46,215 bases of DNA from Clostridia bacterium (GTDB lineage: Bacteria > Bacillota > Clostridia > Oscillospirales > CAG-272): NCBI GenBank assembly GCA_017461365.1, contig JAFTYG010000019.1, positions 1-46,215 of the forward strand, given 5' to 3'. The notes beneath the pieces were generated by a model that saw nothing but the letters and a program-made list of their open reading frames with translations, ran no database searches and was not told the DNA's origin. A program made the position numbers and the translations under genes. The stretch's first letter is position 1. Every line of letters starts with the position of its first letter. Shown piece after piece: positions 5,829-28,793 of this stretch.

Positions 5829-5931
5829 AGATATACCTTTCTCTGAATTTTTGGGCGCAACAAAAAGACGTTCGCAAAATTCGACTTTTTGGGAACCTTT
5901 TGTTTGCGTATGTTAATTTTAGAGAATATTC

Positions 5932-6071: not shown

Positions 6072-6127
6072 ATCATTTACCCTGATTTACGGGAGAAATT
6101 TACTTATGTGTTTTTCGAGGCGAATTC

Positions 6128-13984: not shown

Positions 13985-15117
13985 AAAATACGGTCAAGCT
14001 GTTTTTATTTTTGAGCCTTTTTGTATGTTTCTGCTTTTTCGCATCTCTTCCCGTTTTTGGGGCGGAACTTCCCGAGGGCTTTTCTGAGCTTACCGACAGT
14101 CTGCCCGAGGAGGTAAAGGAATATCTTCCCGACGGTATATTTTCCGAGGACGGCGAGGAGGTCGGGGAAGCACTTTCCGAGATGACGGACAGTAAAAATA
14201 TCTTTGCGGCGGTATCCGATATGCTTACGGACGAGCTTACGTCCTCAGTAGTGCTTTTTGCGAAGATCTGCGGACTTTTGCTTATATCCGCCGTTTTCGG
14301 GGCTCTCGGGCGCTCGCTGTCCTCGGATAGTCTTTCGGGGGCTGTCAAATTCTGTGCGACCACGGCGATATTTGCCTCGATCATACATATGCAAAAGGAG
14401 CACATAGAGGCGGTGGGGCTGTTTTTCGACCGTCTGACGGCTCTTATGACGGCGATGGTTCCGATAACGGGGACTGTTTGGGCGATGGGTGGAAACGTGA
14501 GCACGGCATCTGTGGGTACGTCGGCGCTTTATGTTTTTATCAGCGCTTGCGAGGGGATATGCGCGAAGAGCGTCGTGCCCGTTTGCTGTATATTTACCGC
14601 CTTGGCGCTCTGCAACACGCTCTCTCCCGAGATGGGGCTTCGCGGACTTTCGGGGGCGATGAGGAAGATATACACGTTCGGGCTTGGGATGATAATGACG
14701 GTGCTTATCGCCTCGCTGTCTGCTCAGACGACTCTAAGCGCCGCCGCTGACAGCACTGCCGCAAGGGCGGCGCGGCTTGTGAGTGCGAACGTCATTCCCG
14801 TGGTTGGCGGCTCGGTGGGCGACACGCTCCGAACGGTGGCGACGGGGGTGCAATATCTCAAAAGTGTGGTGGGCATATGGGGGATAGTATTTATCGCTTT
14901 GTTGCTTCTTCCGACGCTTTTGTCGCTTATACTTACGCGGCTTGCCTTTCTGCTTTCAAGCGGAGTTGCGGATATGCTCGGTTGTGAGAGTGAGGGGCGG
15001 TTGCTCTCGGAGCTTGGCGGAGTGTACGCCATTATGGTCGCGGTTGTATCAATGAGCTCGGTTATGTTTATTTTCGCGCTGACGATATTTTCGAAAACTG
15101 TTGTTGCAATACTTTGA
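13981..15117 (+). CDS. spoIIIAE: Stage III sporulation protein AE
   Basis: 378 aa from the ATG at 13981. An N-terminal signal-type segment (to about residue 28, ...VFGAELPEG), an acidic linker, then ~7 hydrophobic segments. Conserved features include the KFCATTAIFASII helix, a Gly-rich GGNVSTASVGTSALYVF segment and NVIPVVGGSVGDTLRTV, all typical of SpoIIIAE. It is a polytopic core subunit of the mother-cell/forespore channel. The next gene, normally adjacent, starts 506 bp later because a repeat element lies between. Confidence 0.94.
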   Translation: MKNTVKLFLFLSLFVCFCFFASLPVFGAELPEGFSELTDSLPEEVKEYLPDGIFSEDGEEVGEALSEMTDSKNIFAAVSDMLTDELTSSVVLFAKICGLLLISAVFGALGRSLSSDSLSGAVKFCATTAIFASIIHMQKEHIEAVGLFFDRLTALMTAMVPITGTVWAMGGNVSTASVGTSALYVFISACEGICAKSVVPVCCIFTALALCNTLSPEMGLRGLSGAMRKIYTFGLGMIMTVLIASLSAQTTLSAAADSTAARAARLVSANVIPVVGGSVGDTLRTVATGVQYLKSVVGIWGIVFIALLLLPTLLSLILTRLAFLLSSGVADMLGCESEGRLLSELGGVYAIMVAVVSMSSVMFIFALTIFSKTVVAIL

Positions 15118-15200
15118 GGCGCGGTGCAGAATTGAAAGAAATTTCAAAATTGGTTTGTACTTAAAATTTGAGTTTATCGATGTGTTTGGTATTTGTAATT

Positions 15201-15528
15201 TTATTCCCAATGAACACAGTGCAGTAAAGCGACTTCGTCGCAAGATCCTCTACTCCGCTGTGCCTATTTCGCTGTTAGCGAAATGGCAAGAACAAGTTCT
15301 TGCTCGAATGTTTCCGAGGATGCCCCCATAAGCGGTTCGGGCTCAGGATGACAGGTTAGTTGAGATAAAATAAATAGGTTTATGCCAAAGTTTATTACGG
15401 GAACCTTATTATATGCTTATGCATACGTTCATCGCCAAACATCCACTATCTGTCATCCTGAACGGCTTGCTACCTTGCAAGCCATGTGAAGGATCTTTTT
15501 TGCGCAAGCAAAATTTACCTTAGAAAAA
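15201..15528. repeat. Structured repeat element, copy 1, inside the spoIIIA operon
   Basis: It begins at TTATTCCCAATGAACACAG and ends at TTTACCTTAGA, shared nearly base for base with 26333-26586. Hairpins: GCGAC-TTC-GTCGC (15229-15241), GGCTTGC-TACCTT-GCAAGCC (15464-15483), TTTTGC-GCAA-GCAAAA (15498-15513). Outer half-sites AAGATCC...GGATGACA and TGTCATCC...GGATCTT are in inverted orientation. Relative to copy 2 it carries an extra segment (~15254-15318) holding an ATTTCGC-TGTTA-GCGAAAT hairpin and a GCAAGAAC-AA-GTTCTTGC hairpin. No coding potential is seen in 15118-15623. Confidence 0.85.
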
Positions 15529-15623
15529 AAAGAACGAATGGATTACCACGAAAAACGGGTATTAGCCTGTAAAATGTAACTTCAACTCCCCGACAAACCT
15601 AAATTTAACAAAAAAGGTGCTCT

Positions 15624-16100
15624 ATGAACACATTTATAATAACTCTCATTTCCGTTGCGCTGCTCGGCGGTATTATGGGTATGCTCTCGCCTGACGGTGA
15701 TACGAAAAAATACGTGCGGTTTGTCGGTTCTCTCTGCGTTTTATGTGCTCTTGCCTCGCCTATATACGGCATACTGTCGGACGGAGAGATAGATATTGGC
15801 TCTCTTTTTGACTACTCGGAGGGGGAGGAGGCGGAATATGAGGACATATATAAAAGCGCTCTTGCCGCGGGGGCGAAGGAGAATGCTGAGGCAGAGCTCA
15901 AGCGGCGGATATGCGAAAGCTTCGAGCTTTCCGAGAAAAGTCTTGACGTAAGTCTTACGCTCGGTGATGACGGAGAGGCTTACTTTGTGGAAAGCGCCGA
16001 GGTGAGTCTGCACAGCAGCGCGGTCTTTGCCGATCCGAGGGAGATCTCGGCGTTTGTCAATGAGATCTGCGGCTGTGCCTGTACGGTAGTTTACGGTTAG
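15624..16100 (+). CDS. spoIIIAF: Stage III sporulation protein AF
   Basis: 158 aa, somewhat shorter than Bacillus members. Two N-terminal transmembrane helices (~3-20 and ~30-52) with the conserved SPDGDTKKYVRFVGSLCVLC segment between and into the second, then an acidic soluble domain (a ring-building-motif fold is known for the family). Start at 15624 with an AAGGTG-type ribosome binding site ~6 nt upstream. It is followed 9 bp later by spoIIIAG. It needs read-through of the 506-bp repeat-bearing gap to be expressed from the operon promoter. Confidence 0.88.
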   Translation: MNTFIITLISVALLGGIMGMLSPDGDTKKYVRFVGSLCVLCALASPIYGILSDGEIDIGSLFDYSEGEEAEYEDIYKSALAAGAKENAEAELKRRICESFELSEKSLDVSLTLGDDGEAYFVESAEVSLHSSAVFADPREISAFVNEICGCACTVVYG

Positions 16101-16109
16101 GAGAAGGAT

Positions 16110-16613
16110 ATGGGAGAAAAAACTACGCCAAAAAAGGATGGGAAAATACTTATTTTTATACTTATCGGTCTTTTGGGGCTGGGGCTCTTGCTATACGGCA
16201 GTATTGCATCCTCAAAAAAGGAGGATGAGAGCGCGGCGGCATCCGAGCCCTCGCTCGATCCCGATGCTTACGCCGAGAAGATCGAGGACGAGGTAGAACG
16301 CATCTGCAAGGGAGTGGCGGGCGGTTGCTCTGTGGATGCCGTGGTGAGTCTTAGCGGAGGATACCGAGCGGTATATGCCTCCGACTCTCAGAGCTCGGGG
16401 ACGGGATACAAGAACAGCATGGTGCTTGTGGGCAGCGGAAGCTCGGAGGGGGCTGTGCTCGTCTGTTATGAAAATCCCGAGATCTCGGGCATAGGCATAG
16501 TGCTATCTTGCCGTGAGGACGAGCGCGTAAAGAGAGACGTTATCGCGCTTGTTTCTGCGGCGTTTTCGATCGGAACGAATAAGATCTACGTTGCTTTCAG
16601 TCCGCAGTCATAA
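16110..16613 (+). CDS. spoIIIAG: Stage III sporulation protein AG
   Basis: 167 aa. One transmembrane helix (~13-33), a Ser/Asp/Glu-rich linker, then an extracellular domain (~50-165) with the SpoIIIAG signature: a GxGxVL-type strand and the conserved IGTNKIYV near the C-terminus (GTNKI/V motif). The family forms a large ring in the intermembrane space that joins the SpoIIIAH-SpoIIQ channel. GGAG-type ribosome binding site; it lies 9 bp after spoIIIAF. Confidence 0.92.
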   Translation: MGEKTTPKKDGKILIFILIGLLGLGLLLYGSIASSKKEDESAAASEPSLDPDAYAEKIEDEVERICKGVAGGCSVDAVVSLSGGYRAVYASDSQSSGTGYKNSMVLVGSGSSEGAVLVCYENPEISGIGIVLSCREDERVKRDVIALVSAAFSIGTNKIYVAFSPQS

Positions 16614-16671
16614 AAGTCGGGAGCGCGCCATATATATTTAGCGTAAATAAAAAAATTCGGAGGAGCGAATT

Positions 16672-17244
16672 ATGAAATTTGAAAATTTGAAAGAAAAGGT
16701 CAAAAATTTTTGCATGAAGGTAGGAAAGCGTAATTTCATTATTTTCGGGGCTATGGTACTGATAGTGGGCGCGGTGGTAGTAGGCGCTGTTGTGAACTCG
16801 CAAAGCAAGGATGACGGCTATGACTACGACTCCCCTGCGGGAATGTCACCGAGCGACACAACGAATGCGGGTACATCAGATGATACCGATGTGTCGGCAG
16901 ACTCCTACTTTTCGAGCGTTCAGGTAAGCCGTCAGCGCACGCGTGACGAGGCGATAGAGGTGCTTCAGGCTGTTGTTGACAATCAGTCCTCGACCGAGAC
17001 GGCAAAGAATGAGGCGTTGGCTGAGATCAACAAGCTTGCAAGCGTTATGGCTACCGAGGCGAACATTGAAACTCTTATCGTGGCAAAGGGCTTTGAGGAG
17101 TGTGTTGCCGTTATCAGCGGCGACGGCGCGAGCATAGTTGTAAAGAGCGACGGTCTCAATGTATCCCAGATCTCTCAGATAAACGAGATAGTGTACAGCG
17201 AGGCAGGCATAAGCCCCGTAAATATCACGATAATCGAAAGATAA
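16672..17244 (+). CDS. spoIIIAH: Stage III sporulation protein AH
   Basis: 190 aa. Basic N-terminus, one transmembrane helix (~20-43), an acidic/Thr-rich linker, then a C-terminal EscJ/YscJ-like ring domain (~80-190) with SRQRTRDEAIEVLQ and LIVAKGFEECVAVI motifs. SpoIIIAH binds forespore SpoIIQ to form the channel across the intermembrane space. GGAGGA lies ~7 nt before the ATG. The 58-bp gap before it is AT-rich. Last gene of the spoIIIA set. Confidence 0.93.
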   Translation: MKFENLKEKVKNFCMKVGKRNFIIFGAMVLIVGAVVVGAVVNSQSKDDGYDYDSPAGMSPSDTTNAGTSDDTDVSADSYFSSVQVSRQRTRDEAIEVLQAVVDNQSSTETAKNEALAEINKLASVMATEANIETLIVAKGFEECVAVISGDGASIVVKSDGLNVSQISQINEIVYSEAGISPVNITIIER

Positions 17245-17300
17245 GGTTTAACACATACTGCGGGAGCAACATATGCTTTAGTGCAGGGAGGTGTGAGCCT

Positions 17301-18377
17301 ATGAAAAGTATAGATCGCAATATTATCGACAATGCGCCGACAAATACGCATTTTGCGGCGGTGAACAGCGGACGGGGCTTTATAAGCTACTTTCACGACG
17401 TGTTCGGGGACGGGAAAATAAAAAGACGGTACATAATAAAGGGCGGTCCCGGGACGGGAAAGAGCAGCTTTATGAAGCGCGCGGCGGAATACGCGGAGTC
17501 GAGGGGCAGGGAGGTGGAATACTTCCGTTGCTCCTCCGATCCTGCATCGCTCGACGGCATAATAATCGACGGGAGCATAGCCGTATTTGACGGCACTGCG
17601 CCTCACGTCTATGAGCCGAGGATTGCGGGCGCGGAGGATGAGATAGTAAATCTCGGGGTATTCTGGGATGCTGAAAAGCTCTATGAGAGATACGGCGATA
17701 TTGCAAGACTTTCGGCTGTACGGTCGTCTATCTACGCAAAGTCGTACAAATTTTTATCGGCGGCGATGAACGTAAGCGAGATAAATGAGGCGCTTGCCTC
17801 GACCGCCTTAAAGCGTGAAAAGACCGAGGCGGCGGCAAGGCGAATACTTAGCGGAATACCCGACGGGGTGGAGGCTCGGCTTGAGTACGGCTTTGTCAAC
17901 GCCATAGGAATGAGCGGTATGGCGCATATTTGCTCCTTTGAAAAGAAAGCCGAAAAGCTATACTGTGTGCTTGACAGCTACGGGCTTGGATGGCATTTTC
18001 TTGCGGCTGTGGCGGCGCGCGCGTCAGAGAAGAAGCTGAAAGTTCAGATCTCCTACGATCCGTTAGAGCCCGAAAAGCCCGACGGGATATATCTTCCCGA
18101 GAGAAATATTGCTTTCGTGCTTTGCGACGGCGAGCTTCCCGAGGGCGCGGTGAGAGTGAATATGAACCGTTTTGTGGACGGAGATGCCATCGACAGGGTG
18201 AAGGCGGAATACAGGCACAACCGCAGGCTTTACGAGGCTCTGCTTTCGGCGGCTGTGGATGCGCTCCGTGAGGCGGGAAAATATCACTTTGAATTAGAGG
18301 ACATATACAAGGCGTGTATGGATTTTGATGCCGAAAGCCGTTTTTGCGAGGAGTTTTGCAAAAAGCATTTGGGCTGA
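17301..18377 (+). CDS. P-loop ATPase, PRK06851-like, function unknown
   Basis: 358 aa from the ATG at 17301, with GGGAGGTG ~8 nt upstream; the upstream extension runs through spoIIIAH in another frame and is not used. Walker A is KGGPGTGKSSFMK (~47-59). Downstream are CSSDPASLDGIII and FDGTAPHVYEP segments, features of a Firmicutes family annotated only as ATPase. The second half repeats a DSYGLGWHFL and IDPLEP-like pattern with no second intact P-loop. It sits 57 bp after spoIIIAH, so it may be co-transcribed in the mother cell, but no direct evidence shows a sporulation role. A terminator follows. Confidence 0.75.
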   Translation: MKSIDRNIIDNAPTNTHFAAVNSGRGFISYFHDVFGDGKIKRRYIIKGGPGTGKSSFMKRAAEYAESRGREVEYFRCSSDPASLDGIIIDGSIAVFDGTAPHVYEPRIAGAEDEIVNLGVFWDAEKLYERYGDIARLSAVRSSIYAKSYKFLSAAMNVSEINEALASTALKREKTEAAARRILSGIPDGVEARLEYGFVNAIGMSGMAHICSFEKKAEKLYCVLDSYGLGWHFLAAVAARASEKKLKVQISYDPLEPEKPDGIYLPERNIAFVLCDGELPEGAVRVNMNRFVDGDAIDRVKAEYRHNRRLYEALLSAAVDALREAGKYHFELEDIYKACMDFDAESRFCEEFCKKHLG

Positions 18378-18385
18378 CCGAAAAA

Positions 18386-18427
18386 AGAGCTGTTTCACTT
18401 TTATCTTGTGGAACGGCTCTTTTTTTG
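18386..18427 (+). terminator. Terminator after the P-loop ATPase
   Basis: AGAGCTGTTTCAC (18386-18398) pairs with GTGGAACGGCTCT (18408-18420), followed by seven T. Confidence 0.88.
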
Positions 18428-18436
18428 AAATGTCTA

Positions 18437-18465
18437 TTTACTTTTTTCGTTTCTTATGTTATAAT
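18437..18465 (+). promoter_or_regulatory. Sigma-A promoter
   Basis: TTTACT (18437-18442), 17 nt, TATAAT (18460-18465), ~30 bp before the next start codon. Confidence 0.75.
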
Positions 18466-18496
18466 TATAAAAATACTTGGCTTTTTGAGGTGAAGG

Positions 18497-19018
18497 ATGG
18501 ATAAGGAAAAACGCAGTGTACTTACGAGGGAGTCTATCAAAAAGGAGCTTGTTGACCAAAACAAGATGCTGTTGATCTTTGGCGGCCTGTCTACGTTGGG
18601 TATCTGGTTCTTTGTGGCGGCGTTTCTGTTTTTGTTTGCGGGACAACTGGCTGCGTATATTACGTTTGTGCCGATAGCGTTTCTGCCTCTGTTATATCTG
18701 ATACCTAAGCTCATAGATCTGATCAAGGTGCAGAGCGGACGTTTTTACGTTGTTGAGGACGAGCTTACGCGTACTGCCGAGGAGGTGGGATACGGTTTGA
18801 TGTTCCGTTACCGTCTGAAAAAGATATTTTACTTTATGCGTCACGGCAGATACGTTATTTCTATGTCTGACGAAAAGAGCATAACCGAATATTCGAAGAT
18901 CGGGGACAGGTTTTATTTGTTGTTTCTTGAGGGTAAAAAGAAACCTATCAAGGTGTACAACAAGAGGGTAAATGACGTTAGCGCGGAGCTTGTGGTGAGC
19001 TTGAAGCAGGAAAATTAA
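18497..19018 (+). CDS. Small membrane protein of unknown function
   Basis: 173 aa. A basic/acidic N-terminus, two adjacent transmembrane helices (~27-47 and ~50-72), then a ~100-residue soluble beta-rich domain (YVVEDELTRTAEEVGYGLMFRYRLKKI). The hairpin of two helices followed by a beta domain is reminiscent of bacterial PH-domain/YcxB-like membrane proteins, but I do not recognise a family signature. It has its own promoter and lies between two terminators, so it is a single-gene unit. GAGGTGAAGG precedes the ATG. Confidence 0.65.
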   Translation: MDKEKRSVLTRESIKKELVDQNKMLLIFGGLSTLGIWFFVAAFLFLFAGQLAAYITFVPIAFLPLLYLIPKLIDLIKVQSGRFYVVEDELTRTAEEVGYGLMFRYRLKKIFYFMRHGRYVISMSDEKSITEYSKIGDRFYLLFLEGKKKPIKVYNKRVNDVSAELVVSLKQEN

Positions 19019-19073
19019 AAAATGGAGCTAGCGGTGCTGTTTCGCTCAAGCTATAAATGTTAACCTAATTCAA

Positions 19074-19108
19074 AAGGACTGTCTTACGTTTTCGCAAGGC
19101 AGTCCCTT
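19074..19108. terminator. Bidirectional terminator
   Basis: GGACTGTCTTACG (19076-19088) pairs with CGCAAGGCAGTCC (19093-19105), with a T-rich run after it and A-rich run before it. It serves both converging genes. Confidence 0.8.
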
Positions 19109-19113
19109 AATTT

Positions 19114-20037
19114 TTATTCGGCTTTTTCGATAAAGCGCATGGCGTTATTATAATAAATATTTTCGAGCATATTTTCATCAAGGCGTATTGCGTGTATTTT
19201 TCGAGTGCCGATGACTCTTTCGCCCTCTCCCGTGAGAAAATGCGACGTTACCTCGTTTTTCAGGTCGTTGTAGGCTCTTGCCTCTCCGACGAGCTTATTT
19301 GTAGCGTCTGTTCCGAAAATTATTCTGTTGTGGTATTTTCTGAAAAATTCCTCGGCTCTTTCGGGTATCTGCGAGAGCTCGGAGTAGATGTTGAGCGCGG
19401 GAGTGATGTCCATTTTCAGGTTAGGATATTTCTCCATAAGCTCAAAGGCTTTTTCTATATTTTCGGAGTAAAAGCCCATATGCGCAAGGGCGATATTCAG
19501 CTTGGGATAACGCATAAGTACGTTTTCTGCTGACGTAAAATATCTTTGGTGAGAGGGGATACCATCGCCGTATATCCATCCCATTTTTATGGCGCGCTCG
19601 TCAGCCTTGGTTATATCCCAGCAGTACGCGGGATCGTTGTTGTGCATGATAATGGGATATTGCTTTTCCTCGCAAAGCGCAAAAAAGTCGGAATAGAGCT
19701 CATCCTCATAAAAATGCGGGTAGGTTTTATAAAAATTCGGCTTTCCTCCGAGAAATAGCTTAATTCCCGAAAAGCCGCTTCCCATAAGCGTTTCTGCCTG
19801 CTTTACGTAGTCTGTGCCCTTGGGCTCAAGACAGCCGAAGGCATAGGACTCGGGCATCAGCTCAAGGAGTCTGAGGCAGGTCTCATTACAGCCCTCAAAG
19901 TTATACGAAAGAGCCGCGATATTTACGCCGCAGTAGCCGTGACGCTCGCACATATCCTTAAAATAGTATGCGCTCTCCTCTACGGGAAGGTCACTCATAA
20001 TATGTACGTGAAAGTCTATTTTCTTTTTTATATTCAT
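19114..20037 (-). CDS. Metal-dependent amidohydrolase family protein
   Basis: 307 aa from the ATG at 20037; a TTG three codons upstream abuts the GGGGGC ribosome-binding region and is less likely. It has the amidohydrolase-2 (TIM-barrel) pattern: DFHVH (His10, His12), GIKLF with Lys93, MHNND (His132), LAHMGF (His186) and FGTDA (Asp244), the usual metal ligands and catalytic Asp. Family members include decarboxylases and lactonases; the substrate here is unknown. It is a single-gene unit with its own consensus promoter and a shared terminator. Confidence 0.82.
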   Translation of the reverse strand: MNIKKKIDFHVHIMSDLPVEESAYYFKDMCERHGYCGVNIAALSYNFEGCNETCLRLLELMPESYAFGCLEPKGTDYVKQAETLMGSGFSGIKLFLGGKPNFYKTYPHFYEDELYSDFFALCEEKQYPIIMHNNDPAYCWDITKADERAIKMGWIYGDGIPSHQRYFTSAENVLMRYPKLNIALAHMGFYSENIEKAFELMEKYPNLKMDITPALNIYSELSQIPERAEEFFRKYHNRIIFGTDATNKLVGEARAYNDLKNEVTSHFLTGEGERVIGTRKIHAIRLDENMLENIYYNNAMRFIEKAE

Positions 20038-20070
20038 TTCGATCAAGCCCCCGTTTACTTTATCGGATCT

Positions 20071-20099
20071 ATCATATCACATCCGAGACGCGCTGTCAA
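20071..20099 (-). promoter_or_regulatory. Sigma-A promoter of the amidohydrolase gene
   Basis: On the minus strand, TTGACA (20099-20094), 17 nt, TATGAT (20076-20071). Confidence 0.85.
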
Positions 20100-20138
20100 C
20101 TCTTATTTAAAAAAAGTACATAAATTTCCCGTTTCCTA

Positions 20139-20167
20139 TTGACAAATTAAACAAAACGTGATAATAT
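20139..20167 (+). promoter_or_regulatory. Sigma-A promoter of the acyltransferase-GT8 operon
   Basis: TTGACA (20139-20144), 17 nt, TAATAT (20162-20167), ~30 bp before the first gene. Confidence 0.8.
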
Positions 20168-20196
20168 AGTATCGCAAACTACATTCGAGGTATGAT

Positions 20197-20982
20197 ATGG
20201 ATAAAAGAAAGGTCATTTATTACAGCGATGAATGTAATGATGAATTCTCGGTGGCAGAGATAACCGCCAAGAAGATAGACGGCTCTTATGAATATTACAG
20301 AGAAAAGCCGTGGCAAAGGCTTGCGCGTTTTTTTGCGTACCGTATGATCGCTATTCCGATAGCGTATATCTATCCGAAGCTTGTATTTCACCACAAGGTC
20401 ATCAACAGGGAGGTCCTGAAGCCCTTTTTGAAGGAAGGCTATTTTATATACGGAAATCACACGCAGGACATTGCCGACGCCTTTATTCCCAACGTGCTGA
20501 GCGTGCGAAAGGACAACTACGTTATAGTTCACCCGAACAACGTATCGATGCCCGTGCTCGGCAGGATAACGCCCTATCTCGGCGCGATACCTTTGCCCGA
20601 TGACAGAGAGGCGTACGTTAATTTTGTGAACACGATAGAAAAGAGGATAGAGGAAAAAAAGGGAATAATCATTTATCCCGAGGCGCATATCTGGCCGTAC
20701 TACACAAAGATACGCCCTTTTCCCGACACGTCCTTTCACTATCCCGTAAAATACGGAACGCCCGTGTTCTGCTTTACGAATACCTATCAGAAGCGGCGTT
20801 TCGGAAAGAAGCCGCGTATCGTGACCTATATCGACGGCCCGTTTTATCCCGATACGTCTCTGCATCCGCGCAAGCAAAAGACCGATCTGCGCAACAGGGT
20901 GTATGAGTGTATGTGCGAGAGGGCTAAGCTCTCGGATGTGGAGCAGATAAAATATATCAAGAAAGAAGATAACGATGGTTAA
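20197..20982 (+). CDS. PlsC-like acyltransferase with a variant catalytic motif
   Basis: 261 aa. Matches the glycerolipid acyltransferase (PlsC/LPLAT) family: an N-terminal hydrophobic segment (~44-65), the block I region YGNHTQDIADAF, block III IIIYPEAHIW (~157-166) and a later GTPVFCF. In the canonical motif HX4D the Asp follows His by five; here His88 is followed by Asp91 and Asp94, so the spacing differs. It probably transfers an acyl group onto a lipid or glycolipid acceptor at the membrane. Its 3' end overlaps the GT8 gene by 8 bp, and the fusion protein two genes on carries a second copy of this domain. Confidence 0.8.
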   Translation: MDKRKVIYYSDECNDEFSVAEITAKKIDGSYEYYREKPWQRLARFFAYRMIAIPIAYIYPKLVFHHKVINREVLKPFLKEGYFIYGNHTQDIADAFIPNVLSVRKDNYVIVHPNNVSMPVLGRITPYLGAIPLPDDREAYVNFVNTIEKRIEEKKGIIIYPEAHIWPYYTKIRPFPDTSFHYPVKYGTPVFCFTNTYQKRRFGKKPRIVTYIDGPFYPDTSLHPRKQKTDLRNRVYECMCERAKLSDVEQIKYIKKEDNDG

Positions 20983-21811
20983 TATCTTGTATTGCGGAAA
21001 TGACAAGGTGTTTGACGGGATGCTGACCTGTACCTTGTCTATACTCAGACGTACCGAGAGCCGAGAGCCCTTTACGTTTTATATATACACGATGGACGTC
21101 TCCGACATAAAGGACACCTATCTTCCCGTCAGTGACTCTCAGGTGAGCTTTTTTGAGGATGTGATAAAGGCTTACAATCCCGAAAACCGCGCCGTGAAGA
21201 TCGATGTGACCGATATATACAAAAAAGAGTTTTCGGGATGTCCGAACGAGGGGGCGTATTGCTCTCCCTATACGCTTATCCGTCTTTTTGCCGATGAGGT
21301 GGAGGGAATGCCCGATAAGCTGTTGTATCTTGACGCGGATATACTTTTTAACCGCGACGTTCATCTTTTGTACGACACCGACGTCGAGGGCTATGAGTAT
21401 GCGGCGGCGAGAGATCACTACGGAAAATATCTCATAAGTCCGAACTACGTAAACGCGGGAGTTCTGCTCTTCAATATGGCAGAGATTCGCAAAACGGGCT
21501 TGCTTTCAAAGGCGCGCGAGCTTATAAAGACAAAAAAGCTCACCTTTGCCGATCAGAGCGCCATCATACGCTCGACAACGAAGAAAAGGATGCTTCCGCA
21601 GAAATTCAACGATCAGAAGTTTTTGCACAAGCACACGGTCGTAAGGCATTTTTCAAAGAGGCTCTTCTGGCTGCCATATCCCCACACCGCTAACATAAAG
21701 CAGTGGCAGGTAAGCAGTGTACATAAGATCTTTCGGTATTACGCCTTTGACGACGTGCTGTACGAATATATATACCTGAATGAAAAATACAAAAGAGAGG
21801 TCAAAAAATGA
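20975..21811 (+). CDS. Glycosyltransferase family 8 protein
   Basis: 278 aa. N-terminal NILYCGNDKVFDGMLTCTLSI is the GT8 UDP-sugar-binding start; the metal-binding DXD is LDADILF (Asp120, Asp122); NAGVLLFNM and ADQSAI are further GT8 motifs. GT8 enzymes are retaining transferases using UDP-glucose or UDP-galactose. No signal peptide or transmembrane helix, so it works at the cytoplasmic face. The start overlaps the acyltransferase gene and the end overlaps the next gene by 4 bp (ATGA), a sign of tight coupling. Confidence 0.88.
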   Translation: MVNILYCGNDKVFDGMLTCTLSILRRTESREPFTFYIYTMDVSDIKDTYLPVSDSQVSFFEDVIKAYNPENRAVKIDVTDIYKKEFSGCPNEGAYCSPYTLIRLFADEVEGMPDKLLYLDADILFNRDVHLLYDTDVEGYEYAAARDHYGKYLISPNYVNAGVLLFNMAEIRKTGLLSKARELIKTKKLTFADQSAIIRSTTKKRMLPQKFNDQKFLHKHTVVRHFSKRLFWLPYPHTANIKQWQVSSVHKIFRYYAFDDVLYEYIYLNEKYKREVKK

Positions 21812-23580
21812 CAAATTCACACATTCCGATATTTTACGCCTGCGACAATAATTTTGTCAAATATACGGTGGTCTCACTCTACTCGATGATAAAGAACGCG
21901 TCAAAGGATTACAAATACCACGTTTACGTTCTTCATACCGACATTACCGAAGAGACAAAGCAGAAGGTATATGCGCTTGCAAACGACAATTTTGAGATCT
22001 CCTTTGAGGACGTTACCGAATATCTCGATTCGATAGCCGAAAAGCTGCCTTTGCGCGATTACTACTCAAAGACCACATATTTCCGTATGTTTATTGCCGA
22101 GATGTTCCCCGAATATGACAAGGCTATCTATATCGACAGCGACACGATAGTGCAGGGTGACATAAGCAAGATGTACCGTACGAACATCCGAGAGGCATAC
22201 GTTGGCGCGTGCCACGAGCAGGCTATGGTTCAGGTGGACGAATACGGCACGTACGCTGAGCGCGTTGTGGGCGTTTCGAGATACAATTTCTTCAATGCGG
22301 GCGTTCTGCTTATCAACTGTGACAAGTTCCGCATAAAGTTTGTGCTTGACAAGTTTATACAGTATCTTCACACCTACAATTTTGTGGTAACTCAGGATGA
22401 GGACTATCTCAATCTTATCTGCAAGGACCACGTTTATTGGCTTGATCAAAGATGGAACACCGAGATATTCGGAAATATTGATTACCCCATTGAGGAGGCT
22501 TGTGTTCTCCATTACATTATGGTAAACAAGCCGTGGCATTATGCGGATTGCCGTCATGGGGATATATTCTGGAGCTATGCCAAGGAGACATCGGTGTATG
22601 AGGAGATGCTGGACGTGCTGAACAGCTACACCGATGCCGAAAAGGAGCGCGACGCGCGCAGTATGGACAATCTTTTGGCGCTTGCCGTCACCGAGACGAA
22701 CAAGGAGGACAATTTTGTCAACCGTCTCAATCTTTCCGAGCGTTCGAAGGACAGAGTTGATATTGTCAAGAAGATAGAGCAGTACGAAAGAGAGGGACGC
22801 TTTGACGAGGACGTAGAGGCAGATCCCCCCGGAAAGATGCTGATGCCCGAGGACATAGACTATCTTGACAAGAGCATGACGCAGAAGCTCAAGACCGCTC
22901 TTGCCTATACCATAGCCCGCCGATTTGTAAATAATCTCATTGACGAAAAGAAAATGATCATCAAGGAGATAAAGGGAATAGAGCATTTCAAAAAGCTCGA
23001 CAGCGGAGCTATCATTACCTGCAACCACTTTAACGCATACGACAGCTTTGCGATACAGATGGCTTATGAGGCGGCAGAGCAGCCCAACAGGACGTTTTAC
23101 CGTGTCATAAGAGAGGGCAACTATACGTCTTTCCCAGGATTCTACGGATTTCTTATGAGACATTGCAACACCCTTCCGCTGTCCTCCAACCGCGAGACAC
23201 TTAAGAAGTTTACGGCGGCGGTTGAGACGCTTCTCAAGGAGGGCAATTTCGTGCTCGTTTACCCTGAGCAGAGTATGTGGTGGAATTACCGCAAGCCTAA
23301 GCCCTTAAAGTCAGGTGCGTATATGTTTGCCGCTAAGAGCGGTGTGCCCGTTCTGCCTTGCTTTATTACGATGAAGGACAGCGACATTATGGGCGAGGAC
23401 GGATATTTCGTGCAGGAATACACAATTCACATAGCGCCTCCCATTTATCCCGAGGACGGTCTTAGCTACCGCAAGAATATGCAGAGGATGATGGACGAGA
23501 ACTATGCGGTATGGAAAGAGATATACGAAAGTGAATATCACATTCCGCTTACCTACACGACCGAAAAGGCAGACAAGTAA
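21808..23580 (+). CDS. GT8 glycosyltransferase - PlsC-like acyltransferase fusion
   Basis: 590 aa. Residues ~1-275 are a GT8 domain: PIFYACDNNFVKYTVVSLYS at the start, DXD in IYIDSDTIV (Asp110, Asp112), FFNAGVLLIN and QDEDYLNL. A charged linker (~276-380) follows. Residues ~385-585 are a PlsC-like acyltransferase: canonical HX4D in CNHFNAYD (His407, Asp412), substrate-binding YPEQSMWWN (~485-493), and GVPVLPCF. One polypeptide can thus glycosylate and acylate. With the two upstream genes this predicts a glycolipid or acylated glycan. Both active sites look intact. The gene ends TAATG, overlapping the next start by 1 bp. Confidence 0.87.
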   Translation: MTNSHIPIFYACDNNFVKYTVVSLYSMIKNASKDYKYHVYVLHTDITEETKQKVYALANDNFEISFEDVTEYLDSIAEKLPLRDYYSKTTYFRMFIAEMFPEYDKAIYIDSDTIVQGDISKMYRTNIREAYVGACHEQAMVQVDEYGTYAERVVGVSRYNFFNAGVLLINCDKFRIKFVLDKFIQYLHTYNFVVTQDEDYLNLICKDHVYWLDQRWNTEIFGNIDYPIEEACVLHYIMVNKPWHYADCRHGDIFWSYAKETSVYEEMLDVLNSYTDAEKERDARSMDNLLALAVTETNKEDNFVNRLNLSERSKDRVDIVKKIEQYEREGRFDEDVEADPPGKMLMPEDIDYLDKSMTQKLKTALAYTIARRFVNNLIDEKKMIIKEIKGIEHFKKLDSGAIITCNHFNAYDSFAIQMAYEAAEQPNRTFYRVIREGNYTSFPGFYGFLMRHCNTLPLSSNRETLKKFTAAVETLLKEGNFVLVYPEQSMWWNYRKPKPLKSGAYMFAAKSGVPVLPCFITMKDSDIMGEDGYFVQEYTIHIAPPIYPEDGLSYRKNMQRMMDENYAVWKEIYESEYHIPLTYTTEKADK

Positions 23581-24146
23581 TGAACGATGATCGGATATAT
23601 TTCGACCTTATACGGAGCGACCGCTCGACCTGTCAGATACAGGTAAAGGCTGACGGCTCTGTTGTTGTTCGCGCGCCGAGGCGTATGTCCGAGGAGGACA
23701 TTATGCGCTTTGTTTCCGGAAAGGAAGAGTGGATAGAGCGGGCGCAGAGGAAGGTCGAAGATGCACGGGAGCGCGCCGAGAGTGCGGAGCCGTTGACGCA
23801 CACGGATATTGAAGCTCTTGCCGAAAGGGCGCTTGAATATATCCCCGAACGTGTGGCGTATTTCGCGCCTATTGTAGGTGTGAGCTACGGGAGGATAACG
23901 GTGCGCAATCAGCGGACGCGTTGGGGAAGCTGCAGTGGAAAGGGAAACCTGAATTTTAACTGCCTGCTTATGCTGACGCCCGAGGACGTTATTGATTACG
24001 TTGTGGTGCACGAGCTTTGCCACTTGAAGGAGATGAATCATTCGCCTCGCTTCTGGGCGGAGGTTGGCCGCGTTCTGCCCGATTACAGGGAGAGCCGTTT
24101 GTGGTTAAAGCGCAACGGCGGCGTGTTGATAGGGAGAATGGGATAA
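23580..24146 (+). CDS. YgjP-type zinc metallopeptidase (DUF45, M48-like)
   Basis: 188 aa. The C-terminal half has the DUF45/YgjP layout: QRTRWGSCSGKGNLNFN (~111-127), then VVHELCHL, a HEXXH zinc motif (His144, Glu145, His148), with a third likely ligand His154 in MNHSPRFW. The family is thought to be metallopeptidases; targets are unknown. It is translationally coupled (TAATG) to the fusion gene but may only share the operon. A terminator lies 8 bp downstream. Confidence 0.88.
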   Translation: MNDDRIYFDLIRSDRSTCQIQVKADGSVVVRAPRRMSEEDIMRFVSGKEEWIERAQRKVEDARERAESAEPLTHTDIEALAERALEYIPERVAYFAPIVGVSYGRITVRNQRTRWGSCSGKGNLNFNCLLMLTPEDVIDYVVVHELCHLKEMNHSPRFWAEVGRVLPDYRESRLWLKRNGGVLIGRMG

Positions 24147-24154
24147 TTAAACAT

Positions 24155-24197
24155 AAGGAGCCGAGTCACCGTAAAGTGGTTCGGCTCCTTGCTTTTT
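24155..24197 (+). terminator. Terminator of the acyltransferase-GT8 operon
   Basis: AAGGAGCCGAGTCAC (24155-24169) pairs with GTGGTTCGGCTCCTT (24176-24190), then GCTTTTT. Confidence 0.85.
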
Positions 24198-24215
24198 ACG
24201 CATATTTAAAACCTT

Positions 24216-24572
24216 CAAATTGGAGTTTCTACTCCGCTACGCTCCGTGGCAAGAACTTTGTTCTTGCGGTAGGATGTTTGAAATGTTAGCACATACAAAG
24301 GAAAGCCTTCTCCTGTGGAGAAGGTGCCGAGCCTGCGAGGCGGATGAGGAGAACACCATTTGTACAAGCCTCGATCTCCTCATCCGTCACTCCTTCGTCG
24401 TGCCACCTAGAGTTTGCTTGCAAACTTTACACGTAGCGTAGCGGAGTAGTTCTCCTACGGGAGTAGGCTTTTTGTTACTTTGCCCCGTTGGGGGTGTGCG
24501 AACATATCGAACATACCAGTGCAAGAACGAAGTTCTTGCCACGGAGCGTAGCGGAGTAGAAACTCCAATTTG
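24216..24572. mobile_element. MITE-like element with perfect 41-bp terminal inverted repeats
   Basis: The left end 24216-24256 (CAAATTGGAGTTTCTACTCC...) is the exact reverse complement of 24532-24572. The 357-bp element has no transposase. Inside are hairpins GCAAGAAC-TTT-GTTCTTGC and, near the right end, GCAAGAAC-GAA-GTTCTTGC, plus an AAGCCTTCTCC/GGAGAAGG hairpin and a GGATGAGG segment with an inverted mate. Related copies are at 9613-9862 and (half only) 26641-26728. It lies between two terminators, where it disrupts no gene. Confidence 0.85.
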
Positions 24573-24599
24573 TATTACTTTACATTTTCTATTTTCCAC

Positions 24600-24632
24600 C
24601 AAAAAAAGGATGCCTCGTTTCGGAGACATCCT
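24600..24632 (-). terminator. Terminator of the CorC-like gene
   Basis: On the minus strand AGGATGTCTCCG (24632-24621) pairs with CGAGGCATCCT (24617-24607), followed by seven T. Confidence 0.85.
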
Positions 24633-24645
24633 GATTTTATTTAAT

Positions 24646-25971
24646 TTACGCCTCGGTTTTGAAGAGCTTAGTCTTTTCCTCTTCGTCCTCTTCCTCTTCG
24701 GGCTGTTTTACGGTAATGATGGCTTTTTCTATCTTATGGTCTCTGAATTCGAGCACCTCTACCGTCATAACGTCGGTATCTACCTCGAACGTAGAGCCGT
24801 CGTCGGGGATAGAGCCGTGGTTGCCGAGAACGTATCCGTTAAAGGTATCAGAGTCGCAATCTTCGAATTTGATCGCGAGTGCATCCTCGACGTCGGTTAT
24901 CGATACCGAGCCGTTGATCGCCCATTTATTTTCCTCTACCTTTACGATGGGCTCGATCGCTTCCGTATCCTCGTCCGTTTCGGAGAATTCTCCGACAAGG
25001 CATTCGACAAGGTCGGTAAAGGTAATGATACCGCGGACTCCGCCGTATTCGTCAAGGACTATGGCGATGAACTCCTTATTCTTTTTCATATTTCTGAAAA
25101 GAACGTCTGCCTTTACGCTTTCGGGTACGAAATACGCGGGCTTTACGGCGTGCTCAAGGATATTTTCTTTATTTTTTTCTTCGAGTCTGAAATATTCGCG
25201 CGCGTCGAGGATACCGATGATGTCGTCAACGTCCTCTCCGTAAACGGGGTAACGTGAAAATCTGCTGTTTCCGATGACGGTGTCCCATTCCTCAACGGGC
25301 GCGTCGGAGGCGAGCATGGTGATCTCGGTGCGGTGGGTTGCTATCTCGCCTGCGGAAAGGTCGTCGAAATCGAATATGTTCTCTATGAGCTCCTTACTGT
25401 ATTCGTCCACGCTTCCGTCCTCATGAGCCTCGTCGACGAGTGTGAGAAGCTCTCCTTCGGTAACGGTGTCGTTATCTGAGGGCTTGAAGATCTTGGAGAG
25501 GAGCTTTTTCCAAAGCATAAAGATAGCGTTTATAGGTGTGAGTATTGTGATAAGAAAGCCGAGGAAGCCCGACACCGCCATAGCAAATCCCTCGGGGTGG
25601 TCCTTTGCGATGGATTTCGGGGATATTTCTCCGAAGAGCAGGACTACCACGGTAGCGACTATTGTTGAGATGGTCGCCGCCATATTTGCTATTGAAGTGT
25701 TTGCCAGCAGAGAAACGAAATACATCGTGCTGACAGAGGAGAGTGTAATATTAACGATATTATTGCCCACGAGAATAGTTGAAAGCAATCTGTCGTAGTT
25801 CTCGGATTGTTTGAGGACTCTTTCGGCTCTTTTGCTTCCCTCGGAGGCGAGATTTTTCATCTTCGTTTTGTTCATTGAGGTGTACGCCGTTTCGGTGGCA
25901 GAGAAGAATGCCGAAAAAATAAGGCAGATAAGCATAATTGACAGGGGTAATAAATGGTCTTCGACTAACAT
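24646..25971 (-). CDS. HlyC/CorC-family transporter (CNNM, CBS pair, CorC domain)
   Basis: 441 aa. Residues ~1-190 are a CNNM/DUF21 membrane domain with ~4 transmembrane helices and the conserved SAFFSATETAYTSMN, GNNIVNI and FGEISPKSIA motifs. A tandem CBS pair follows (~205-330; ends with VLDEYGGVRGIITFTDLVE), then a CorC_HlyC domain (~345-425, WAINGSVSITDVEDAL...YVLGNHGSIP) and an acidic tail. Members are linked to Mg2+ or Co2+ efflux and tolerance. AAGGAG lies 5 nt before the ATG. A ~245-nt leader with its own consensus promoter, a small ORF and a terminator-like hairpin suggests regulated expression. Confidence 0.9.
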   Translation of the reverse strand: MLVEDHLLPLSIMLICLIFSAFFSATETAYTSMNKTKMKNLASEGSKRAERVLKQSENYDRLLSTILVGNNIVNITLSSVSTMYFVSLLANTSIANMAATISTIVATVVVLLFGEISPKSIAKDHPEGFAMAVSGFLGFLITILTPINAIFMLWKKLLSKIFKPSDNDTVTEGELLTLVDEAHEDGSVDEYSKELIENIFDFDDLSAGEIATHRTEITMLASDAPVEEWDTVIGNSRFSRYPVYGEDVDDIIGILDAREYFRLEEKNKENILEHAVKPAYFVPESVKADVLFRNMKKNKEFIAIVLDEYGGVRGIITFTDLVECLVGEFSETDEDTEAIEPIVKVEENKWAINGSVSITDVEDALAIKFEDCDSDTFNGYVLGNHGSIPDDGSTFEVDTDVMTVEVLEFRDHKIEKAIITVKQPEEEEDEEEKTKLFKTEA

Positions 25972-26060
25972 AATGACTCCTTGCTTTAGATTGAAAACTA
26001 ATTCCGCTAATACTTACGGCGGACCGTTTTAATGGGATATACAAAGTTTCGGTACAACGC

Positions 26061-26102
26061 AAAAAAGCATAGCCTGTGCCTTTATCGCACGAAGGTTATG
26101 CG
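26061..26102 (-). terminator. Terminator-like hairpin in the leader of the CorC-like gene (candidate attenuator)
   Basis: On the minus strand GCATAACC (26102-26095) pairs with GGCTATGC (26074-26067) around an inner GTGC/GCAC stem, followed by TTTTTT (26066-26061). An alternative pairing CAACGCA/TGCGTTG uses the same GCA, so two folds compete. It lies ~95 nt before the corC-like start codon. Confidence 0.6.
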
Positions 26103-26156
26103 TTGATAAATTTTTGAGTATGTACTTCGACCGTTACCGTCGTCGCTACTGCCCAC
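26082..26156 (-). CDS. Candidate 24-codon leader ORF upstream of the CorC-like gene
   Basis: GTG at 26156 is preceded by AAGGAG (26169-26164) at the ideal 7-nt distance. The frame reads MGSSDDGNGRSTYSK... and ends with R then TAA at 26082. The stop codon falls in the loop of the terminator-like hairpin, so a translating ribosome would keep that hairpin from forming. The ORF starts ~60 nt after the predicted transcription start. No codon run pointing to a particular amino acid is seen. The ORF could be chance. Confidence 0.4.
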   Translation of the reverse strand: MGSSDDGNGRSTYSKIYQRITFVR

Positions 26157-26223
26157 TTTGTATCTCCTTAAAATTTCACAGCGGCTTTTGCCGTCTGTCG
26201 TTGATGTGTACCAACTACCCATT

Positions 26224-26251
26224 ATTATACCATATAAATTTCTTTTGTCAA
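26224..26251 (-). promoter_or_regulatory. Sigma-A promoter of the CorC-like gene
   Basis: On the minus strand TTGACA (26251-26246), 16 nt, TATAAT (26229-26224). Transcription should start near 26217, giving a leader of ~245 nt with several hairpins (GTTG/CAAC; ACAG-CGGC/GCCG-CTGT). Confidence 0.88.
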
Positions 26252-26332
26252 TAGTTTTTTTGTATTTTCTTTTTTTGGATTGAATTGAGGAAATAAATTG
26301 GAACTTGCCGGGGAGTTTGATGTGTGTAAATG

Positions 26333-26586
26333 TATTCCCAATAAACACAGTGCAGTAAAGCGGCTACGCCGCAAGATCCCTCGGCTTAATGTGCTGATAA
26401 CCCCATAAGCGGTTCGGACTCGGGATGACAAGTTAGTGTATGAGAAGTAATATATATGCACCAAAGTACGGTGCGACATTTGTATGTACAAATACGCACA
26501 CGCTACACTTCGTGTCATCCTGAACGGCTCGCTACCTTGCGAGCCATGTGAAGGATCTTTTTTGCGTAAGCAAAATTTACCTTAGA
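26333..26586. repeat. Structured repeat element, copy 2
   Basis: Shares both ends with 15201-15528. Hairpins: GCGGC-TAC-GCCGC (26360-26372), GGCTCGC-TACCTT-GCGAGCC (26526-26545), TTTTGC-GTAA-GCAAAA (26560-26575). The first two stems differ from copy 1 only by paired changes, and the tetraloop changes GCAA to GTAA. It lies between the divergent promoter of the CorC-like gene and the end of the CapD-like gene. Confidence 0.85.
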
Positions 26587-26640
26587 TTTGCTGGGGTTTG
26601 TTTTCTTGTTGTGCCACATTCAAGCGTAGCAATTTTAAAT

Positions 26641-26728
26641 CCAAACTCCAATTTGAAGAACACACCGTACGAACCGCACGAACTTCGTTCGTGCCACGGA
26701 GCGTAGCGGAGTAGAAACTCCAATTTGA
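26641..26728. repeat. Partial copy of the 41-bp terminal-repeat family
   Basis: It holds GCACGAAC-TTC-GTTCGTGC then CACGGAGCGTAGCGGAGTAG and AAACTCCAATTTG, matching the right end of 24216-24572; the left end is reduced to CCAAACTCCAATTTG. The hairpin again differs by paired changes. Confidence 0.7.
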
Positions 26729-26777: not shown

Positions 26778-28793
26778 TTAAACCTTTGTTTTTTCCGCCA
26801 TTTTGATCTCGTCCGACTGTGATGCGTCGGCGTTGACCTCTTCGGGCGTTTTAAAGGTTGAGACAGCTTCTCTGAGCGCCTCTCTTGCCGCTTCGTCGTC
26901 GCCTCTCTCTACTGCTATTCGGAGAAGAGCGAGCTTCTTTGAGAGGACGTCGGGGCTGACGGGGTGATCTTTCTCAATGAAGATCAGGCTGTTTTTGGTC
27001 TTTGTCAGCTTTTCGGTCTTGACGAGCAGCTCCTCATAGAGCTTTTCGCCCGGGCGAAGTCCCGTTTCTATAATATCAATATCCTTATACGGCTCGTATC
27101 CGCTCAGCTTTATCATGCTCTCGGCAAGGTCGAGTATCTTTATCGGCTTACCCATATCGAGAACGAAGAGCTCTCCGTTCTTTGCCATAGCCGCCGATTG
27201 CAGGACGAGCTGGCTTGCCTCGGGGATAGTCATAAAGTATCTTATGATACGCTTGTCCGTAAGGGTTATAGGTCCGCCCTTGAGTATCTGCTTTTTAAAC
27301 AGCGGGATGACCGAGCCTGCGCTTCCGAGGACGTTTCCAAAACGTGTACAGCTATAGGTCGTGGTCTTTGACGTGGCGCTGTGGCTCTGCACGATAGTCT
27401 CGCACATACGCTTTGTAGCGCCCATGACGTTGGTGGGATTTACAGCCTTATCGGTGGAGACCATCATAAATCTCTCGACGCCGTATTTTTCGGACAGCTC
27501 TACTGTATTGAGCGTTCCGAACACGTTGTTTTCTATTGCCTCGCAGCAGTTATGCTCCATCAGAGGCACGTGCTTATGCGCCGCCGCGTGTAGGACGACC
27601 TGAGGTCTATAAAGCAGGAATACCTTCTCAAGCGCAGGTCTGTTGCATACCGAAAGTATCTCTACGTTCAGGTCGAGCGACGATCCGTAGGCTATTCTCA
27701 GCTCCTGCTGTATATCGTAGGCTCCGTTTTCGTAAACGTCAAGGATGATGAGGCGCTTGGGGCTCATTGCGGCGATCTGTCTGCACAGCTCGCTTCCGAT
27801 GCTTCCTCCTCCGCCCGTGATAAGAATTACCTTATCGCGGTAGAATTCCTCTATGCATTTATCGGTCACGTCGAGCGGCTTTCTGAAAAGAAGCTCCTCG
27901 ATGTCGAATTCACGCAGATGTCTTTTCTTTGTGCCCGCCTGCTGTATTACGGGGAAGTCATAGACCTTTACCTTAAAGCCCATGCCCATATAATGCCGAT
28001 AAAGCGCCTGCTTCTTTTCATCGTCCTCTCGCGGGAGGGCGAATATGATCTCCTGTATCATATTTTCTCTGAGCATATGCTTTGTTGCGGTCTCTTCGGA
28101 ATATACCTTGAGTCCGAACACCTGACGTCCGATCTTTTCGGCGTTGGTATCTATAAAGAAAACGGGATTATAGGTGGAGTTTTTATTGTTCAGAAGCTCT
28201 TCTGCAAGTCCGACGCCTACGTTTCCCGCGCCGACTATTGCGACGTTTATCTTGGTGTTGTAGGTGTTTTCCTCAAGCAGTATCTTTTTTCCCGCAAAAA
28301 TGCGCAGGCATACGCACATGAGCTTTCCGAGCTTTGTGTCGCGTTTACAGCATTTGTAGGCATATCGGTAGCACATACGGATAGCCAACGAGCCGAGAAG
28401 CGTCATACAGCTTATCGAAAGTATTCTCGGGAAAGAGGCGTGCGTGATATTCAGGGGAATATCGAGAAGTCTTTCCACAAGATAGTATGCAATGAATGCT
28501 ACGCCGTCGGCAAGGAGCAGGCGGATGAAGCACTGTATTCCTCCGTAACGCCAGATCTGATTATAGACTCTGAAGATAAGTCTTGACACAAGGATAAACG
28601 CGCCGCTGAGAACAAATTGATAAAGAACTTCGTTGAATTTTAAGGCGACTGAGCCATCGTAGATGACCAAAAGCAGTATCGCTACCGCGCAGTAAATGAC
28701 AAGGTCGTAAAGACCTATTATCCACTGTCTGCCCACTCTGTGCAGACGCTCGGAGGTCGCGCCGCCTTTCTGTTTTGTATCTTTGCTGTTCAT
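26778..28793 (-). CDS. Membrane UDP-HexNAc 4,6-dehydratase, CapD/WbpM/PglF family
   Basis: 671 aa, full length for the large FlaA1-like class. Four N-terminal transmembrane helices (~24-45, 55-75, 92-110, 123-142) are followed by a CoA-binding-like Rossmann domain (GAGNVG, 188-193) and the catalytic SDR domain with TGGGGSIG (326-333). The catalytic triad is Ser446, Met457, Lys461; Met in place of Tyr is the hallmark of WbpM-type enzymes. The reaction is UDP-GlcNAc to UDP-4-keto-6-deoxy-HexNAc. The product would feed the aminotransferase encoded divergently at 29100. A consensus promoter and a hairpin leader precede it. Confidence 0.92.
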   Translation of the reverse strand: MNSKDTKQKGGATSERLHRVGRQWIIGLYDLVIYCAVAILLLVIYDGSVALKFNEVLYQFVLSGAFILVSRLIFRVYNQIWRYGGIQCFIRLLLADGVAFIAYYLVERLLDIPLNITHASFPRILSISCMTLLGSLAIRMCYRYAYKCCKRDTKLGKLMCVCLRIFAGKKILLEENTYNTKINVAIVGAGNVGVGLAEELLNNKNSTYNPVFFIDTNAEKIGRQVFGLKVYSEETATKHMLRENMIQEIIFALPREDDEKKQALYRHYMGMGFKVKVYDFPVIQQAGTKKRHLREFDIEELLFRKPLDVTDKCIEEFYRDKVILITGGGGSIGSELCRQIAAMSPKRLIILDVYENGAYDIQQELRIAYGSSLDLNVEILSVCNRPALEKVFLLYRPQVVLHAAAHKHVPLMEHNCCEAIENNVFGTLNTVELSEKYGVERFMMVSTDKAVNPTNVMGATKRMCETIVQSHSATSKTTTYSCTRFGNVLGSAGSVIPLFKKQILKGGPITLTDKRIIRYFMTIPEASQLVLQSAAMAKNGELFVLDMGKPIKILDLAESMIKLSGYEPYKDIDIIETGLRPGEKLYEELLVKTEKLTKTKNSLIFIEKDHPVSPDVLSKKLALLRIAVERGDDEAAREALREAVSTFKTPEEVNADASQSDEIKMAEKTKV

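Follow-up and report, generated by a model that had tools for sequence, protein, structure and literature searches.

Two copies of a repeat family in one window

The DNA analyzed here, in the following called the window, is a stretch of 46,215 nucleotides from Clostridia bacterium (Oscillospirales, CAG-272; assembly GCA_017461365.1, contig JAFTYG010000019.1). Two stretches within it, one inside the spoIIIA operon and one between two genes of the reverse strand, are copies of a non-coding hairpin-in-hairpin repeat family with about 85 copies in this one bacterium. In at least half of the testable copies, an outer shell of inverted repeats brackets a head-to-head pair of TGTC-tagged palindromic units, with alternative cassettes in the tips, the spacer and the arms. 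The parts of the two window copies are the following:

15164..15606 (+), copy 1, whole element with its outer inverted-repeat shell, between spoIIIAE (13918-15117) and spoIIIAF (15624-16100)
15164..15182 (+), left outer inverted repeat of copy 1, AAATTTGAGTTTATCGATG, from a repeat family with 100 matches at up to 3 mismatches
15203..15523 (+), core of copy 1
15229..15241 (+), hairpin 1 of copy 1, GCGAC-TTC-GTCGC
15242..15353 (-), left palindromic unit of copy 1, reverse complement of TGTCATCCTGA..GAAGGATCTT with variable tip
15250..15303 (+), 54-bp hairpin cassette of copy 1, missing in its near-identical sister L056, its edges placed to within a few bases
15354..15450 (+), spacer between the units of copy 1, 97-nt class
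15451..15497 (+), right palindromic unit of copy 1, TGTCATCCTGAACGGCTTGC..GCAAGCCATGTGAAGGATCTT
15498..15513 (+), end hairpin of copy 1, TTTTGC-GCAA-GCAAAA
15588..15606 (-), right outer inverted repeat of copy 1
26295..26654 (+), copy 2, whole element with shell, between genes at 24646-25971 (-) and 26778-28793 (-)
26334..26585 (+), core of copy 2
26360..26372 (+), hairpin 1 of copy 2, GCGGC-TAC-GCCGC
26373..26430 (-), left palindromic unit of copy 2, foot allele ATCCC/GGGAT
26513..26559 (+), right palindromic unit of copy 2, CTCGC/GCGAG allele
26560..26575 (+), end hairpin of copy 2, TTTTGC-GTAA-GCAAAA
26655..26727 (+), right-arm extension of copy 2 with further hairpin cassettes and a second partial right outer repeat AAACTCCAATTTG (by eye)

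A preliminary description of this DNA had reported two stretches with near-identical ends, three hairpins and two paired substitutions between them. All of this agrees with our reading, and the shared ends are no product of chance, as a right-end pattern matched 84 times in the 2,375,177-base draft genome of the organism compared to 2 times for the reversed control, and a left-end pattern 74 times compared to 5. Both copies lie at the places described, but the size of the element had been given too small, since the outer inverted repeats enlarge the copies to the extents given above. The analyses below cover 83 of the 84 right ends (C16:187 was left out). For 57 of these the left end lies on the same stretch, which gives 57 complete cores (55 distinct sequences); the other 26 have no left end there. 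At least 23 of the 84 right ends sit no more than 350 bp from a contig end. The element probably breaks the assembly, so that the true copy number may be higher.

Architecture of core and shell

In the copies with both ends, the core begins with ATTCCC..GTGCAGTAAA, hairpin 1 and the left palindromic unit, continues with a spacer of 55 to about 99 nt, and closes with the right palindromic unit, the end hairpin and TTTACCTTAG. The right unit reads TGTCATCCTGA-tip-GAAGGATCTT and the left unit has this motif in reverse complement, which makes the core a head-to-head dimer. The units have a 5-bp foot (ATCCT/AGGAT and its alleles), so that the stem starts with AT pairs, followed by a long branched tip; their tail is CTT. 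The TGTC tag lies at the inner end of both units, and the two tags, which face each other across the spacer, pair mutually in the predicted fold.

The shell consists of the inverted repeats AAATTGGAGTTTGTCGGGG outside the core, which, with a leading C, have 100 matches at up to 3 mismatches and none in the control. When a loose pattern was applied to the 50 cores with enough flank, shell ends were found on the left in 33, on the right in 39 and on both sides in 27 cases; 11 cores had the right end alone, 6 the left end alone and 2 neither, and the remaining 4 came second in a tandem pair. Applied to control windows, these patterns matched 7 of 56 times on the left and 7 of 56 times on the right. 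The shell also surrounds other palindromic interiors in the same genome (20 stretches, by eye). A second repeat family, whose palindromes are GCCTTCTCC..GGAGAAGGC-like and often GGATGAGGAG, is bracketed by the shell or by one of its ends in L117-L120, L122, L123, L127-L129, L131, L133 and L135 (by eye). Tandem cores, separated by a conserved linker like ACTTTTGCGAAATGGT, were seen in L022/L028, L012, L060 and L089.

Mosaic composition

Nine positions were scored in the 57 copies, and these yielded 48 combinations; among the pairs of positions scored two ways, 35 of 36 show all four combinations. Copy 1 and L056 (C58) are near-identical between the outer repeats, where the alignment shows 3 substitutions, one 1-base run-length change and the 54-bp hairpin cassette present in copy 1 alone; the outermost repeat bases diverge more. 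L025 and L032 have both ends in common and a different interior. Single cassettes recur at different places: CTACTCCGC..CCGTGG was found 13 times in cores, 6 times in shell arms and once elsewhere, and GGCAAGAAC..GTTCTTGC 24 times in cores, 6 times in shell arms and 3 times elsewhere. This mosaic may have arisen by recombination, by gene conversion or by repeated gain and loss of cassettes.

Part of the mosaicism could stem from the assembly of a repeat-rich metagenome, a concern raised by the many right ends close to contig ends and by a contamination of 5.77% as estimated by tool. However, the other right ends lie deeper in contigs, the flanks differ between copies, and 48 combinations in 57 copies exceed what a few chimeras would yield, which leaves an artefact highly improbable.

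Pairing and covariation

Both window copies fold better than every shuffled version of themselves (copy 1, z -4.90, 100 shuffles; copy 2, z -4.29, 200 shuffles), which is expected of palindromic DNA anyway. Pairing was followed across the family in two alignments made from an incomplete list of copies, one of 24 distinct cassette-free left domains (A1) and one of 42 distinct right domains (A2). In A1, hairpin 1 and the unit foot are paired in every one of the 240 cells, and 3 of the 10 pairs vary, always on both sides (A-U/G-C 20:4, C-G/U-A 22:2, U-A/C-G 17:7). The covariation score of 0.176 exceeds that of shuffled alignments (0.088 +/- 0.011) and that of the structure when slid (0.013 to 0.080); 42 of 500 shuffles reached its count of pairs with two-sided change, while additional pair types were below shuffle level. 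Over all 57 copies, one pair of hairpin 1 is A-T in 48 and G-C in 9, only 2 of 228 cells are mismatched, and the loop differs from TTC in 11.

The feet of the units were compared in the 32 of 57 cores that have both plain foot words. Their alleles match the partner in all 32 copies (CCT/AGG 21, CCC/GGG 7, TCT/AGA 2, a G-T pair 2) without any mismatch, and the association of CCC versus CCT is significant (Fisher p = 5e-06), while the tip words between the matched feet vary (25 copies listed). Matched feet around varied tips go beyond what module swapping alone would give; either palindrome self-correction or selection may account for them.

On the right side, the hairpin GGCTTGC/GCAAGCC, described earlier as kept in form, is so in both window copies, but not throughout the family: on the 77 of 83 right ends that could be scored (six were too near a contig end), 43 of 539 cells are mismatched, 36 of them in a right-half allele ending GCAGACA. 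This allele, which breaks the hairpin, is carried by 17 of the 77, and one or more mismatches occur in 24 of the 77. In A2 this hairpin is paired in 87.8% of cells, and the whole right structure scores 0.114 compared to 0.074 +/- 0.007 for shuffled alignments, its number of two-sided pairs being matched by 35 of 500 shuffles. The stem TTTTGC/GCAAAA of the end hairpin is paired and unchanged in all 83 right ends; as these were chosen by a pattern that contains the stem, and the right end left out, C16:187, reads TTTTAC, this invariance says little on pairing. The end loop is GTCA in 47, GTAA in 16, GTTA in 14, GCAA in 4, GTGA in 1 and ATCA in 1 of the 83 right ends, so that a GNRA loop, which had seemed conserved, fits only 21 of 83 and was an accident of the two window copies.

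The paired changes had been taken to suggest selection on folding. The pairing signal itself stands, as the fully paired left domain illustrates, but selection does not follow from it, since discrete module alleles occur in nearly all combinations, a 54-bp cassette divides near-identical sisters, and a hairpin-breaking allele is present in 17 of 77 copies. Template switching that restores stem pairing in one event is described in PMC8794818. Module exchange among about 85 copies together with self-templated palindrome repair explain the paired changes at least as well as selection on an RNA.

Insertion site and gene context

Copy 1 is an insertion of about 440 bp in the spoIIIA operon, where it separates spoIIIAE from spoIIIAF. 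The gap between these genes measures 506 nt here. In the congeners read, 17 of 17 have a gap of -4 to 34 nt and are without copy 1, and it is this difference that identifies copy 1 as inserted. The copies tested are located between genes. For 21 copies with long flanks, the directions of the neighboring open reading frames (ORFs) were -- in 8, +- in 5, ++ in 4 and -+ in 4 cases, a spread that indicates no strand preference. Mechanically called ORFs of 92, 94, 97 and 108 amino acids, and none longer, cover at least 30% of the core in 4 of the 21 copies; we take these as spurious.

No terminator-like sites were found inside copy 1 on the + strand, and 5 such sites (two on the + strand) were found around copy 2 compared to 0.5 in shuffles. 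Adjoining copy 2, at 26224-26251 (-), lies a perfect sigma-70-like promoter (TTGACA, 16, TATAAT, with TG) that points toward the CNNM/CBS gene at 24646-25971. In Rfam searches of the window at gathering score, neither copy yielded a match; the sole match was the following feature:

5918-6082 (-), glmS ribozyme/riboswitch

Occurrence in relatives and beyond

blastn searches with the core in 58 relatives, which include 29 congeners, yielded no match (in G009 and G051, 13 of 59 and 13 of 20 first-look candidates were scored). The exact left-end pattern had 0 matches in the collection genome_contigs, which possibly lacks the own or a very near genome, and collections of phages, plasmids and viral contigs, which may omit such a genome as well, gave no match either.

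The shell reaches further than the core. Its pattern occurs in 3 of 29 congeners (G008, G025 and G016) in species-specific variants and with other palindromes inside where read. At 24 places examined in congeners, 11 shells could be delimited at both ends, two of which are identical even in their flanks; the interiors include GGACCGTCGAGGACGCCGGTCC, and one 50-bp shell (L286) is almost empty.

The unit motif with any tip was found in 11 of 147 genomes of the order, the own included (92 matches), while the control had 0 in all. Extended by one base at each end, the motif matched at least 117 stretches in named genomes in a scan without control; among the matches listed are Clostridia, Bacteroidota, Proteobacteria, Spirochaetota, Chloroflexi and others, and the tips between the constant feet are, among these listed matches, often short palindromes of unrelated sequence (by eye). 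From two order-level relatives, 20 stretches around such matches were chosen; their 56 units have 40 distinct tips, the mean longest stem of which is 4.8 compared to 3.2 after shuffling. In the stretches L266-L285 (G038, G081), the feet are constant and the palindromic tips diverse, and the units are often oppositely oriented at a distance of about 150 bp, with the tails facing.

Functional RNA or mobile DNA

Several of these results might imply a mobile structured RNA, which had been suggested before, or a cis-regulatory RNA whose fold is selected: pairs covary, feet stay matched around differing tips, folding is strong, copy 1 lies between two operon genes and is thus presumably transcribed, and terminator-like sites are enriched around copy 2. 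Base pairing speaks for this proposal, yet nothing positive was found beyond it. The copies show no strand preference, no match in Rfam at gathering score, no conserved GNRA loop and no blastn match in relatives, one allele breaks a hairpin, and a 54-bp cassette in the middle of the element may be present or absent. We therefore regard a functional RNA as very unlikely.

The family resembles a small DNA passenger more than it does a functional RNA, and it is probably a composite, non-autonomous palindromic DNA repeat of the kind of miniature inverted-repeat transposable elements (MITEs) and repetitive extragenic palindromes (REPs). Its copies would spread as DNA with an enzyme supplied in trans, and older palindromes would take up new ones in their loops. 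The modules may be shuffled as copies recombine or undergo gene conversion, and stem pairing may be kept mainly because palindromes template themselves and not for a job in a transcript.

A number of observations weigh against such a repeat. Y1 transposases (PF01797) had 0 matches in the own draft genome, although the same search was positive in 5 of 14 control genomes, and an IS66-type transposase (PF03050) had no match in the assembly, other transposase families not having been searched. The 38 shells inspected show no clear target-site duplication (at the best of many settings tried, 6 compared to 2.5 expected). Among the 50 flanked cores, 2 of the non-tandem ones are without any shell end and 17 of them have one on one side only. 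Some association is left between neighboring slots: 8 of 36 slot pairs are associated (p < 0.05, all four combinations present), the left cassette goes with the tip cassette (p = 8e-10), and the pair lacking one combination, spacer class with right cassette, is associated as well (p = 8e-04). Finally, the matching of feet around differing tips would also fit selection on the fold.

Which enzyme might move the copies bears on two further explanations. The first is the REP/IS200-type DNA hairpin of the preliminary description, that is, a REPIN/PATE-like element moved single-stranded by a Y1 enzyme of the REP-associated tyrosine transposase (RAYT) group. Hairpins near both core ends, the head-to-head dimer layout and the lack of a detected target duplication would suit it. 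The RAYT expected elsewhere in the genome was looked for and not found in the assembly, and within the genus Y1 does not track the shell: 12 of 30 genomes have matches, 10 of them over the family cut-off, but of the shell carriers neither G008 nor G025 has one and G016 has one below the cut-off only. The tag found here, moreover, is TGTC and not the GTAG by which RAYT-associated REPs, REPINs and IS200/IS605-derived elements were judged. The enzyme could lie in the missing 5% of the assembly or be lost; still, this explanation appears quite unlikely.

The second is a classic MITE that a DDE-type insertion sequence sharing its terminal repeats would cross-mobilize. It is favored by the outer terminal repeats with their 100 matches, among which, however, no inward-facing pair at the spacing of an insertion sequence was seen by eye, though such copies often drop out of drafts; with the target duplication missing as well, we consider it rather unlikely. 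Some shells, a minority, are enclosed by GTAACTATTCAG..CTGAATAGTTAC repeats, and such ends occur in IS66-type elements. IS66 ends were dropped as a general explanation, as PF03050 gave no match and the pattern occurred 33 times compared to 29 for the control. In L126 (285-400), GTAACTATTCAG..CTGAATAGTTAC encloses a short shell, and an 8-bp near-duplication, ACTTCAAT/ACTTAAAT, is seen there by eye.

A more far-reaching idea is a hairpin-cassette system, in which the loops of palindromic repeats would accept other palindromes and perfect hairpin cassettes would be inserted, removed and exchanged by a loop-directed mechanism. It would act in the genus, where one shell has many interiors, and in unrelated bacteria with constant TGTCATCCTGA..GAAGGATCTT feet around arbitrary palindromic tips. 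We hold this idea to be unlikely.

Comparison with known repeats

A literature search, covering open-licence papers mostly at the level of titles and abstracts, yielded no publication that we recognized as describing the unit or the nested element. A close comparison for a composite palindromic DNA repeat of this build is a REP superfamily defined by the tags CGTC, TGTC or CCTC at one end of the palindrome (PMC3733652), compared here by its description. Both have a TGTC tag at the head and a stem that begins with AT pairs, both form mostly head-to-head dimers with structured spacers, and both lack an associated transposase, no dedicated one being reported for the TGTC/CGTC-tagged REPs (PMC3733652). 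In contrast, the published stem has 8-9 bp and the loop 4-5 nt, whereas here a 5-bp foot carries long, branched, exchanged tips; the published tail mostly fits CCA and not CTT, and an outer terminal-repeat shell is added here. The family thus resembles the CGTC/TGTC REP dimers, but judged by stem, loop size and tail is not to be filed there.

Like the bacterial MITEs Correia/NEMIS, ERIC and RUP, as characterized in PMC2229807 and PMC3049150, the element is small and intergenic, with terminal inverted repeats and strong base pairing. It differs from them in that no target duplication was detected, length varies by whole cassettes, one shell has unrelated interiors and no partner insertion sequence was seen by eye among the 100 end matches. 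BOX elements of streptococci are likewise modular composite repeats with variable middle modules (compared by their description in PMC3049150); there, boxA and boxC enclose a variable number of boxB, whereas here nine positions hold alternative alleles or cassettes in many combinations. Bacterial interspersed mosaic elements (BIMEs) of E. coli, too, are mosaics in which palindromic units are variously combined. Their building blocks are whole REP units and linkers, whereas here it is sub-modules within one unit that differ. BIMEs are mentioned in PMC2817692.

Implications

In this family, covariation extends over many copies with no need to invoke a functional RNA, since alternative self-complementary modules are freely combined. 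Searches that use covariation to discover structured RNAs should take this as a caution where genomes are rich in repeats. With about 85 copies and nine scored exchangeable positions, the family described here provides a dense natural record of the growth and spread of bacterial palindromic repeats.

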